Shown here piece after piece: positions 1-52,521 of a stretch of 52,521 nucleotides of DNA. The stretch lies in the IMG/VR virus record IMGVR_UViG_3300036715_004474, positions 1-52,521 of that record, one strand, 5' to 3'. Under the pieces are notes generated by a model, which was given only the letters and a program-made list of their open reading frames with translations, made no database searches and was not told the DNA's origin. Every line of letters starts with the position of its first letter. The first letter of the stretch is position 1. A program made the position numbers and the translations under genes. The stretch comes from a virus.

Positions 1-612
1 TCAGATCGCGGCGTGGAGGGTGGAGAACGCGGCCGCCTCGGCGCGGAGCCAGGCGTCGTGGAGCGGAGCGTGGGCGCCACGCGCGGAGCGCACGCGGCCC
101 GCGGCGACGTCGAGCACCCCGAAGACGGCGCCCGGGTGCGCGGCCCCGAGCGCCCGCCCGAGCAGCTCCACGACCAGGTCGACGCGCTTCTGGGGGAGCG
201 GCTCGGTGGGCCACCAGGTGGCGAGGATCAGCGGGGCGCCGGCGACCTCGAAGGCGAGCTCGGGCGCGACGTCGATCTCCAGCTCGCCCAGCGAGACGGC
301 CGCGCGTGGGGGCAAGATCCAGCGGAGCGCCTGCGACGCCGCCGCGAAGGCGCGGTACCCCGCGATCAGGGGCGGGAAGAGGCGCCGCTTGCGCTCGTCG
401 ACGAGCGAGGGCACGAGCGCGTCGAGGACCGCGTCCGGGTGCCCGCCGACGTGCATGGCGACGATGGCCTCGCGCAGCGGCTTGTAGAAGTCGGTCAGGT
501 GGTCGTAGCGCCGATCCTTGGAGGCCTGGACAGCGGCGGCCCGCGCGGGGCCAGCGGTCAGCGCGAAGTCGACGAACAGCGGCAGCGAGATCCTCTCCAC
601 GAGGTCCTCCAC
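1..612 (-). CDS. Hypothetical protein, 203 aa
   Basis: Soluble alpha/beta-looking protein of unknown function; no family recognised. It begins with GTG (MEDLVERISLPLF). The middle (about residues 105-150) alternates hydrophobic strands and acidic residues (SLGELEIDVAPELAFEV), which could be a beta-sheet core. The start is immediately preceded by a perfect 20-bp palindrome (615-634), so no ordinary ribosome binding site is visible. It is the leftmost gene and may be phage or host. The stop codon is the first base triplet of the window on this strand, so the gene is complete. Confidence 0.6.
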   Translation of the reverse strand: MEDLVERISLPLFVDFALTAGPARAAAVQASKDRRYDHLTDFYKPLREAIVAMHVGGHPDAVLDALVPSLVDERKRRLFPPLIAGYRAFAAASQALRWILPPRAAVSLGELEIDVAPELAFEVAGAPLILATWWPTEPLPQKRVDLVVELLGRALGAAHPGAVFGVLDVAAGRVRSARGAHAPLHDAWLRAEAAAFSTLHAAI

Positions 613-35657: not shown

Positions 35658-35894
35658 CTACTCGTCGTCGGCGCCGCCGGCCATCTCGGCGACGTCGACG
35701 CCGTCACGCCGGGCGAGGCGCACGAAGTAGGCGGCGACCGAGATCCCCTCGGCCGCGGCGCGCGCCTTGAGCGCCCGCCTCGTGGCGGGCGGCACCTTCA
35801 GCGTGAGCCGCTCCAGCTCGCCGGCGGCGAGCTTCGCGGCGGCGGCCTTCACGTTCACCGCCCGGGCCGTCGAGGGACGCTGGGGGGCCTTCAC
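35658..35894 (-). CDS. Ribbon-helix-helix partition partner, 78 aa
   Basis: Starts at GTG 35894, overlapping the parA stop by four bases (GTGA). The N-terminal 25 residues are basic and flexible (RPSTARAVNVKAAAAKLAAG). The C-terminal core LERLTLKVPPATRRALKARA, then AAEGISVAAYFVRLARRDGV, is a ribbon-helix-helix. A flexible basic arm plus this fold directly after a small ParA is the ParG/ParF-type (type Ib) arrangement, where the protein binds the centromere and represses parA. The role is inferred from layout. Confidence 0.75.
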   Translation of the reverse strand: MKAPQRPSTARAVNVKAAAAKLAAGELERLTLKVPPATRRALKARAAAEGISVAAYFVRLARRDGVDVAEMAGGADDE

Positions 35895-36547
35895 GCGGCT
35901 TCCGCCATGGCGGCCTCGTAGAGCCGGGTGATCTCGTCGGCCGCCGGCGACGCCGGCGCGCCGAACGTCAGCACGCTCTCGCCCGTGAACATCGACTCGG
36001 CGAACGCCACCCGGTTGCCGATGGTGATGGGCGCGAGCTCGCCGTTGGGGGCGATGGCGTCGAGGGCCAAGCGGGTGATCCGGGTGTTGGAGGCGACCCC
36101 GTTGAGCACGAAGAGCCGGCGCGTGACCGGGAGCCGGAGCTCGGCGCGGATCTGGTCCGCGCTGTCGAGCAGCTCGATGGTCTCGCTCGCCGCCCACCAG
36201 TCGAGCGGCCCCGCGCGGAGCGGGATCACGATGACGTCGGCGGCCACGGCCGCGGCGCGCGTCACGTCGCCGATCCGCGGCGGGCCGTCGCAGAGGACGA
36301 CGTCGTAACCCTGCGACAACGTCCTGAACTTCGGCAGGCTCAGGGCCTTGTCGGTGCGCGCCACGTTGAGGCCGTCGAGCCGCGACCCCGCCTCCCGCGC
36401 GCTGAACCAGTCCAGGCTCGAGCCCTGCTGGTCGAGGTCGAGGATGAGGGTGCGCTGGCCCGCCAGATGCGCGGCCGCGGCGAGGTTCGCCGCGATCGTC
36501 GTCTTCCCCGTCCCGCCCTTCTGGTTGAGCACGGCGATGGTTCTCAT
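35891..36547 (-). CDS. parA: ParA-type partition ATPase, 218 aa
   Basis: Small Walker-type ATPase: deviant Walker A KGGTGKTT (10-17, signature K10), Walker A' LDLDQQGSSLDWF (36-48), Walker B DVVLCDGPPR (82-91). There is no N-terminal HTH, so it belongs to the short class (type Ib, such as ParF, about 206 aa). ATG 36547 was chosen; the frame stays open through the repeats upstream but that part is non-coding in character. It lies just downstream of 9-bp and 22-bp repeat arrays, consistent with a centromere-operator. It would move the free phage genome to daughter cells. Confidence 0.85.
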   Translation of the reverse strand: MRTIAVLNQKGGTGKTTIAANLAAAAHLAGQRTLILDLDQQGSSLDWFSAREAGSRLDGLNVARTDKALSLPKFRTLSQGYDVVLCDGPPRIGDVTRAAAVAADVIVIPLRAGPLDWWAASETIELLDSADQIRAELRLPVTRRLFVLNGVASNTRITRLALDAIAPNGELAPITIGNRVAFAESMFTGESVLTFGAPASPAADEITRLYEAAMAEAA

Positions 36548-36552
36548 GGCCG

Positions 36553-36678
36553 GTGAACCTAGTGCAACCAGTGAGACCAGGTCAACCAGGGCGACAGGTT
36601 GCGCCGGTGCGACGGGTACGACCAGGCGCACCGGGACACCTGGTGCGCCGAGGGCGACCAAGACGACGGGGCGCGGCG
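36553..36678. repeat. Degenerate 9-bp tandem array next to parA start
   Basis: About 14 contiguous nine-base units with consensus near GTGCGACCA (for example GTGCAACCA, GTGAGACCA, GGTCAACCA, GTACGACCA, GTGCGCCGA). The first unit begins six bases upstream of the parA ATG. Type Ib partition operators are also made of short degenerate boxes bound by the ribbon-helix-helix protein, so this may be the parA operator. Confidence 0.55.
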
Positions 36679-36955
36679 CCGTCTCCAGCGGGCGGACCTC
36701 GGGTGCGCGCCGTGGCGACCAGGTCCTCGTGGCACCTGGCGCGCCGGCAGCCGGGCGCGCGGGCGCGCCGCCGAGCTCCGCATGGTCGGCGGCCCGCGGC
36801 GCCGTTGTTGGCCAGCTCTGGGCTCGCGGCGCCCCCTGGCGTAGCCCCTGCTGGACCCCAAGAACCGACCGACATCGTGTGTGTGCCCGCCGGGAGGCCG
36901 CTCTCACATCGGGTGATCCTGAGTTCAATCCTCGGAGGTTCCTGAGGAGATCCTC

Positions 36956-37084
36956 TCGTCGTCGAGCCCGCTTGGCAGGGTCGTCGAGCCCGCTTGGCAG
37001 GGTCGTCGAGCCCGCTTGGCAGGGTCGTCGAGCCCGCTTGGCAGGGTCGTCGAGCCCGCTTGGCAGGGTCGTCGAGCCCGCTTG
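36956..37084. repeat. Six tandem 22-bp iterons
   Basis: Units beginning GTCGAGCCCGCTTGGCAGGG start at 36961, 36983, 37005, 37027, 37049 and 37071. The first five are identical and contiguous with exact 22-bp spacing; the sixth is true only for its first 14 bases. Such an array near an initiator gene and parA fits replication iterons or a partition centromere. There are no unique spacers, so it is not CRISPR. Confidence 0.9.
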
Positions 37085-37231
37085 ACTAGATGGGTAGGCG
37101 TAGATCCAGGGGTCGGCCGTTCCTGGCGAGGTCGAAGTGCGCTCGCCCGGCCGAACCCGAAACGCGGACAGGCCGGCCCATGGCCGGGTCGGCACCCAGC
37201 CACAGACCGGCCTCTCGAGGGCCTCAGCGTC

Positions 37232-50763: not shown

Positions 50764-50864
50764 TCGTAAAGCCCCCGCCCGGGCACGCCGGGAGGCCCGA
50801 CGCGCGAGCGCCTGAGTTTCCAGGCGCCTCGGTGGTCAGCGTGCGAGCCATGAGGACGAGATGA
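50760..50864 (+). CDS. Tiny ORF, 34 aa
   Basis: GTG 50760 overlaps the upstream stop (GTGA) and its stop overlaps the next ATG (ATGA), so it fills an exact gap in the coupled operon. Sequence MIVKPPPGHAGRPDARAPEF then GASVVSVRAMRTR is basic and Pro-rich. Real coding is uncertain; it could serve only for translational coupling. Confidence 0.4.
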   Translation: MIVKPPPGHAGRPDARAPEFPGASVVSVRAMRTR

Positions 50865-51229
50865 GCGCGCGCGTGATCGATCTGACCCAGCGGCGCCGGG
50901 TCGCGCAGCTCCAGCAGCAGATGCTCTCGGCGCAGACCGAGCTGGTGCACCTCCTTTGTGGCGGGCCGGCGCCGGAGCCGACCCCCGTGCCCGCCCCCGA
51001 CGATGAGGACGAGCTGGTCGCCCGCGCGCGCTTCGCGGCGGAGCTGGAGGCGATCGCGCCGCCGACGCCGCCCGTGCCCAGCTCGCCGGGGCGCGCGCCG
51101 GTGGTGACGGAACCCTCGCCGCGGCCGCGCCGTCGGCGCCGTCGACAACCCGCGGCCGCGGCCGCCACGGAAGCCGACGTTCGGCGCGCGCAGCGGGCCA
51201 CCAAGGCGAAAGGTATGCTGCTCCGATGA
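50861..51229 (+). CDS. Basic hypothetical protein, 122 aa
   Basis: ATG 50861 (MSARVIDLTQRRRVAQLQQQ). Helical start, an acidic Pro-rich middle (PAPEPTPVPAPDDEDELVAR), then a strongly basic end (PSPRPRRRRRRQPAAAAATE). Overlaps the integrase start (ATGA), so it may act with it, for example as an accessory DNA-binding protein. Confidence 0.5.
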   Translation: MSARVIDLTQRRRVAQLQQQMLSAQTELVHLLCGGPAPEPTPVPAPDDEDELVARARFAAELEAIAPPTPPVPSSPGRAPVVTEPSPRPRRRRRRQPAAAAATEADVRRAQRATKAKGMLLR

Positions 51230-52521
51230 GACCGCGAGACGTGCCATTTGGCGGCGGAACGATCGAGGAGCGCCGCGGCAAATTCCGCGTGCGCGTCCCC
51301 GTCGATGGGAAGTACCGCGACCTCGACACGGTGACGACGAGGGAGGAGGCGGAGAGCCTCCTGCGCGGGTTCTCCGTGTTGCAGGCCCGCGGCGACGTGG
51401 TGACCTCGGGCGAGACGCTCCGGGAGTACGGCGCCAAGTGGCTCGCCCAGCGTGAGCTCGCCGGCGGGAAGAACACCGCGAGCGATCAGGGGCGGTGGAC
51501 GCGCTACGTGCTCTCCGCGCCCTTCGCCGACGACCCGCTGCGGACGATCGGGCGCCGCGACATCAAGACCTGGCTCGCCAGCCTCGCGGGCCGAGCTGCC
51601 GCGGACAAGCGCACGAAGAGGAAGATCTCCCCGCAGACGCAGAAGCACTGCCTGACCCTGCTCCGGTCATGCTTGCAGGGCGCCGTCGACGACGAGCTGC
51701 TCGCCGTGAACCCAGCGAGCAAGATCCGGGGGCCGCGCGTCTCGCGCGACGAGGGCTGGACGTACCTGCCGCCCGAAGAGCAGCGCGCGCTCCTGACGTG
51801 CGCAGCGATCCCCGAAGCCGATCGGATGATCGTCGCGTTCGCCATCGGGGTCTGCCTGCGCCAGGGCGAGCAGTGGGCGCTCGAGCTACCCGACCTCGTG
51901 GTGAGCGGCCCCTACCCGCACGTGATGGTGCGGTACGGCGGTCCCAACCACGCGTCGACGAAGGGGAAGAAGATCCGGCGGGTGCCGCTGTTCGGGCTCG
52001 CCCTCGCCGCGGCCAAGCGCTGGCTGCAGCTCCTGCCGGTCTTCGCGCCACGGAACCCCAAGAACCTCGTCTTTCCGACGCCGCGCGGGTGCCATCGCGG
52101 GAAGAAGGCGCCGCGAGGCTGGAGCGACTACCTCGCCGCGGCCGGGCTCGGCGAGGCGAGCAAGCGCCACGACGGGCGGTCGGTGCGCTGGCACGACCTC
52201 CGGCACACGGGCGCGAGCTCGCTGGTCGCCGGCTGGTGGGGGAGGGTGTGGCGCCTGGAGGAGGTGCGGGACGTCCTCGGGCACACCTCGATCACCGTCA
52301 CGGAGCGCTACGCCCACCTCGCGCCCGGCGTGCTCGCCGAGGCCGGGCGGCTGACGGTGGCGGCCCTGCCGGAGGCCGCGGGAGCCGGCGGCCGAACTCT
52401 CCCCCAATTCTCCCCCAGCGATTCGGCGTCGCCGGCGGGAAGTGCTGCAAAACAAGGGCGCGCCACAGAGGATTCGAACCTCTGGCCTACGGCTCCGGAG
52501 GCCGTCGCTCTATCCAGCTGA
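51226..52521 (+). CDS. int: Phage integrase (tyrosine recombinase), 431 aa
   Basis: Catalyses integration at the tRNA-Arg gene. The N-terminal arm-binding domain runs to about 60 (TIEERRGKFRVRVPVDGKYR), the core-binding SAM-like domain to about 170, and the catalytic domain has R212 (CLRQGEQ), K246 (STKGKK), H323-x-x-R326 (HDLRHT), H353 (GHTS) and Y362 (ERYAH). After a Gly/Ala/Ser-rich stretch the final 19-20 residues (ATEDSNLWPTAPEAVALSS) are encoded by the complement of the tRNA, and the stop TGA is the complement of the tRNA D-arm. The C-terminus would therefore change when the phage excises. It is coupled to the gene before it. Confidence 0.9.
   Translation: MRPRDVPFGGGTIEERRGKFRVRVPVDGKYRDLDTVTTREEAESLLRGFSVLQARGDVVTSGETLREYGAKWLAQRELAGGKNTASDQGRWTRYVLSAPFADDPLRTIGRRDIKTWLASLAGRAAADKRTKRKISPQTQKHCLTLLRSCLQGAVDDELLAVNPASKIRGPRVSRDEGWTYLPPEEQRALLTCAAIPEADRMIVAFAIGVCLRQGEQWALELPDLVVSGPYPHVMVRYGGPNHASTKGKKIRRVPLFGLALAAAKRWLQLLPVFAPRNPKNLVFPTPRGCHRGKKAPRGWSDYLAAAGLGEASKRHDGRSVRWHDLRHTGASSLVAGWWGRVWRLEEVRDVLGHTSITVTERYAHLAPGVLAEAGRLTVAALPEAAGAGGRTLPQFSPSDSASPAGSAAKQGRATEDSNLWPTAPEAVALSS
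52459..52521 (-). tRNA. tRNA-Arg(CCG), partial at the window edge; attachment site
   Basis: Read on the minus strand from the window edge: D-arm TCAGCTGGATAGAGC, anticodon stem ACGGC/GCCGT with loop CTCCGGA (anticodon CCG, 52498-52496), variable AGGCC, T-arm AGAGG-TTCGAAT-CCTCT, acceptor 3' strand GTGGCGC and discriminator G at 52459. CCA is not encoded (CCC follows). About 11 bases of the 5' end lie beyond the window. The 3' half is the likely phage attachment core, since the integrase gene overlaps it. Confidence 0.9.

Follow-up and report, generated by a model that had tools for sequence, protein, structure and literature searches.

The closest described counterpart of the system analysed here is the integrase of Myxococcus phage Mx8, whose IntP and IntR forms were reportedly described by Tojo in 1996 and Magrini in 1999. 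In the integration-dependent immunity of mycobacteriophages and Gordonia phages, attP lies inside the repressor gene at a tRNA and integration changes the C-terminus of the protein, while in partitioned integrases of the SSV type the catalytic part is separated by integration. SSV-type archaeal viruses carry attP inside the integrase gene, which integration splits (PMC4383910). For the serine integrases of streptococcal ICEs in rumA, the att site likewise lies in the integrase gene, and both the length and the C-terminus of the enzyme change on integration (PMC4701971). In Mx8, integration swaps a 112-residue end for 13 residues and leaves a less active product (PMC4701971); the integrated product has also been described as altered in specificity (PMC6070905). 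Detailed knowledge of an arrangement of this last kind has so far come from phage Mx8 alone.

Integrase end, tRNA overlap and att core

The window, by which we mean the whole 52,521-base contig of an IMG/VR virus record, has gene ends at both of its termini. It holds a contractile-tailed prophage, in which sheath, baseplate, tape measure, portal, terminase and major head protein were recognised, and a tyrosine integrase occupies its right end. The features that bear on the argument are as follows.

35891-37195, minus strand: ParA/MinD-like ATPase gene within the prophage (AAA_31, E 5e-19)
50861-51229, plus strand: 122-aa ORF sharing 4 bp with the start of the integrase gene, with a homologue (40% identity) at the same place in relative L137
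51226-52521, plus strand: tyrosine integrase gene (PF00589) in its integrated (lysogen) form, 431 aa
52309-52311, plus strand: codon of the catalytic tyrosine Y362, recognised from sequence as invariant
52396-52417, plus strand: two 11-bp direct repeats (ACTCTCCCCCA / ATTCTCCCCCA) within integrase codons, from sequence
52458-52503, unstranded: att core, bounded by the Polyangium attL/attR repeat (46-47 bp)
52458-52521, minus strand: 3' 64 nt of tRNA-Arg(CCG), by identity to a complete tRNA; anticodon loop at 52494-52500
52504-52521, plus strand: host-only integrase end, V-A-L-S-S and stop (TGA at 52519-52521)

The enzyme itself is a tyrosine recombinase, with a Pfam PF00589 match (E 9e-13, residues 182-366) and the catalytic series R..K..HxxR..H..Y (R212, K246, H323, R326, H353, Y362). 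Across 20 relatives R212, R326, H353 and Y362 are invariant, and K246 and H323 nearly so. All of the sequence considered below to be exchanged lies downstream of the Y362 codon. Between that codon and the core, the two 11-bp repeats are candidate arm-type integrase sites; similar repeat pairs occur some 30-40 bp ahead of the core in L137 and in Polyangium attR/attL. The 122-aa ORF stands in the same position relative to the integrase as the excisionase gene uoi of Mx8, and by that analogy is a candidate directionality factor.

The TGA that closes the 431-aa frame ends on the final base of the record. At 97% identity over 66 bp, positions 52456-52521 correspond to the complete tRNA-Arg(CCG) of Minicystis rosea (L003), and the same stretch closely matches the tRNA-Arg(CCG) of Polyangium (L002); ARAGORN makes no call here because the 5' 11 bp of the tRNA fall outside the record. 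A preliminary description had proposed that the integrase ends antisense to this tRNA, with its TGA the complement of a D-arm TCA, and this was borne out: the tRNA encompasses 20 integrase sense codons together with the TGA. The same description attributed the whole tail to the host, which stands for the stop and the last 5-6 residues, whereas about 14-15 of the 20 residues fall in an att core that the phage carries. The division rests on two boundaries. The Polyangium att repeat ends just beyond the anticodon loop, and similarity of the window to the attP of L137 falls off at 52500, the end of that loop; thus only the terminal V-A-L-S-S or A-V-A-L-S-S and the stop are host-only. The core therefore lies inside the integrase reading frame.

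No second copy of the core occurs in the window, either exact at 16 bp or longer or over 26 bases with at most 3 mismatches, so the window's attL lies outside the record. Comparison of the window's left-end genes with the L137 left arm and with Polyangium, aimed at placing attL, gave no match. Two observations concern the Minicystis site. At L003:10001-10306 a decayed remnant of a related integrase is fused to the same tRNA-Arg(CCG), marking a former insertion there. The first gene of the window (1-612, minus strand), for which no family match was found, has a homologue (48% identical) at L003:14941-15534, on the host side and 4.7 kb from the same tRNA-Arg.

Free and integrated forms among relatives

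Because its own attL and any extension fall outside the record, the free form of the window's integrase is one that we infer from relatives. The integrase of Polyangium sp. 6x1 is 45% identical to that of the window and uses the same tRNA. The two ends of its prophage sit about 34 kb from each other on a single contig and carry the sole two copies of the core in that genome; the layout of the window's end is identical to that of the Polyangium attR. For 10 elements, attP was rebuilt from both prophage ends by joining only the two flanks, and in these the integrase frame continues for 47-122 codons past the core.

Natural attP forms tell the same story. That of L137, whose 513-aa integrase (...RATKDSNLWPSAPEFDALLNGSAHLDSEAGKIGETLRPLAERVLRAVAGRSRFAGRLAVQFADAFL...) is 70% identical to the window's, reads ...SNLWPSAPEFDALLNGS... 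through a partial tRNA-Arg core and on into a further helical region. Other natural examples are found in L138, L140, L144-L149 and L151-L155, and from genomes in L019, L048, L053 and probably L015. One pair displays both states side by side: L138 and L139 are related phages, about 74% identical over 7.4 kb, that align colinearly as far as the core and part right after the anticodon loop, where L138 continues into the extension (free) and L139 is closed by tRNA-Trp (integrated; ...GFGIRCSTN-stop). A longer C-terminus in the free phage is thus present in relatives, naturally in L137, L138 and others and in the 10 rebuilt attP sites, while the window's record ends without attL.

These relatives lend support to the earlier proposal that excision gives the integrase a different C-terminus. 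Had the free phage kept the same tail and stop, the proposal would have failed, yet in L137, the closest relative, they are absent and the frame runs on. The core does leave out the last 5-6 codons and the stop, as delimited by the 46-47 bp of Polyangium, but these are on the host side, and so the tail changes.

Some far att copies have more complicated surroundings. In L083/L241 (the far end of the G286 element) and L242 (G001), a piece of integrase tail precedes the far att copy, in frame with the extension; this forms a 145-bp repeat, as if an older free-form integrase end had stayed behind, possibly from a tandem insertion. At L100 (G176 contig 149), the far att site occurs twice, 1.1 kb apart, with each copy followed by its own version of a 47-aa extension; these represent nested or successive insertions at tRNA-Thr(CGT).

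Frame survey, extension domain and alternative readings

The least improbable alternative is neutral read-through: at 73% G+C stops are rare, and the integrase frame might simply run into the tRNA and beyond, giving tails without a role. Long chance ORFs are indeed common here. We weigh this reading against a survey of 59 loci with a tRNA core, drawn from homologous integrases of the class Polyangia. In 54 of the 59 no stop interrupts the integrase frame across the T-arm, a far higher share than for the two other frames (24/59 and 27/59; McNemar p 7e-8 and 5e-7), and a stop before the T-arm end was found in 5/59 members. More distant integrases, which carry their own stop ahead of the tRNA, behave otherwise: among 20 with a nearby T-arm motif, two reach the T-arm (p 2e-11 vs the family). 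Targets span tRNA-Arg (CCG, CCT, ACG, TCG, TCT), Gly, Lys, Thr, Asn, Asp and His. In L011, L017, L018, L025, L034, L036 and L069 the tRNA is in sense orientation to the integrase, and the integrated tail of such elements is read from the host flank. Judged from sequence, reading into the tRNA core is the rule across this integrase family.

The position of the stop speaks for chance. A TGA at this D-arm position, 11 bp in from the 5' end of the tRNA, serves as the stop in 18 of 42 overlapping lysogens, no more often than random frames predict and close to the share expected of one in three. We accordingly rejected the D-arm stop as a selected feature; its position is a property of the tRNA.

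The extension itself fares differently. A profile built from 4 sequences, run against 11,644 six-frame ORFs from upstream regions, returned as its only other matches at E <0.01 three other extensions. A second profile, of 9 extensions, gave matches in 52 of the 318 Polyangia genomes searched. Among 30 extension loci examined, 8 were profile sequences; of the 22 non-seed loci, 17 carry the T-arm motif of a tRNA immediately ahead of the extension, with one frame open across both, vs 14.5% at random positions in any frame (p 7e-11). A blind search thus recovers the conserved extension almost always in frame and behind a tRNA fragment. Values of pN/pS in four close extension pairs were 0.44, 0.28, 0.38 and 0.83, below 0.5 in three of the four. 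On these grounds of conservation and selection in the sequences, the extension is a real conserved domain, and neutral read-through is very unlikely. A 4-base overlap of the extension stop with the next start codon (18/29) was discarded as a signal, since a similar share arises by chance given TGA.

The domain also has its limits of recognition. Searches with the extension against Pfam, PHROGs and PDB sequences gave no convincing match, and its profile has no significant match within the window. Neither the Mx8 extension against the 4-sequence profile nor the Polyangium extension against a profile built from other elements reached significance, though the latter resembles the L137 extension by eye. 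In an AlphaFold model of L137 IntP the catalytic core is confident, residues 368-429 are disordered and a helical hairpin is predicted at 432-473 (pLDDT ~68-77); the best fold matches, the Tn1549, XerH and lambda integrases, come via the core. The disordered stretch carries the residues encoded by arm and core DNA. The model thereby suggests that the att DNA may encode a flexible linker, and that the arrangement would be tolerated for this reason.

Less probable still is that the window is not integrated at all, with the phage itself carrying a whole tRNA-Arg and the tail being the same in both states. The record ends inside the tRNA, and the host junction is therefore unseen. Against this, the attP sites of L137 and Polyangium leave the tRNA right past the anticodon region, and the anticodon stem, broken in the L137 attP, is intact in the window, where an A27-T43 pair compensates for T27-A43 of Polyangium. 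Least plausible is a separate short gene that starts on its own at the left end of the phage and sits behind attP by chance. Some extensions do have an internal ATG (e.g., MAGRVST... in Polyangium), but the extension continues the integrase frame in 10/10 rebuilt and all natural attP sites, in two tRNA orientations, and in most cases its frame is already open ahead of the tRNA fragment.

A proposed integration-state switch and its relation to known systems

We assign a probability of about 0.83 to the reading that the 3' end of the integrase gene harbours attP, and that integration swaps a conserved C-terminal domain (IntP) for a tail from the host tRNA (IntR). In relatives, the gene arrangement, both of its states and the conservation of the stranded domain are directly visible. 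Under the proposed mechanism, attP would be located past the catalytic tyrosine, and in the free phage the gene would run through the arm sites and the tRNA-derived core, across attP, into the helical domain. Crossover at the anticodon loop would strand this domain at the far end of the prophage, and the host tRNA, read antisense, would close the integrated gene with a few residues and a stop. The exchange of C-termini needs only an attP inside the gene and ordinary recombination. Because attP lies inside the gene, the integrating and excising enzymes would be different proteins, set by the state of the DNA.

What the swap does to the enzyme is suggested by Mx8, by analogy with which a change of activity between the long and short forms may be expected. 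The long form, made on infection, would carry out attP x attB recombination and favour integration. The short form, the sole one that a prophage can make, would excise with lower or altered activity or with a bias toward excision; either would stabilise lysogeny and lend direction to the reaction. Alternatively, the domain may act through turnover, contact with arm-bound protomers or partner binding. On balance, we favour the broader view that in temperate phages of Polyangia, over about ten kinds of tRNA and both tRNA orientations, a conserved helical C-terminal domain, encoded beyond attP and amputated by integration, works as an integration-state switch governing either the direction or the level of recombination.

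The literature that we searched, a set without the original Mx8/Mx9 papers, contained no paper stating a family-wide arrangement. What appears to be new is that the arrangement is family-wide, with a recognisable detachable domain, many tRNAs and all reading frames. The detachable domain is absent from current family libraries, and prophage annotation would usually miss it because it sits at the far end of the prophage. An orphan domain behind a tRNA fragment would, conversely, locate attL and hence the exact prophage ends. The family also offers a concrete test of how an integrase can tell an integrated phage from a free one: which version of the enzyme is made depends on the DNA state itself.

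Several known systems resemble the locus in part. The SSV-type partitioned integrase is not a match, as Y362 lies about 150 bp ahead of the core; only residues past the catalytic tyrosine are exchanged here, and the enzyme stays catalytically complete. Integration-dependent immunity also alters a protein C-terminus by integration, but the gene there is a repressor, whereas the core here is inside the integrase, and that assignment was set aside. The rumA ICEs differ in using a serine recombinase and a target, rumA, that is not a tRNA. Klebsiella prophage integrases (MK448233) are, as here, next to and convergent with tRNA-Arg, yet have their own stop 18 bp ahead of the tRNA, the ordinary layout.

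Mx8 remains the nearest kin, and the likeness to it that had been pointed out beforehand is supported. Both enzymes are tyrosine integrases of myxobacterial phages with attP inside the gene; in Mx8, and likewise in the window's relative L137, a partial antisense tRNA core (GLEPVLLGS in Mx8) leads into a helical extension. The proteins are homologous: pairwise with Mx8 Int, the Polyangium form gives 25% identity (E 2e-11) and the window's integrase E 7e-11. The similarity is remote, however, and the targets differ, tRNA-Arg(CCG) here and another tRNA in Mx8; the stop here lies in the D-arm. As a remote homologue of Mx8 Int that would work in the same way, the window's integrase is therefore assigned to the Mx8 IntP/IntR kind. 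So far regarded as one of only a few examples, Mx8 is joined here by a large integrase family in which the arrangement is the norm.
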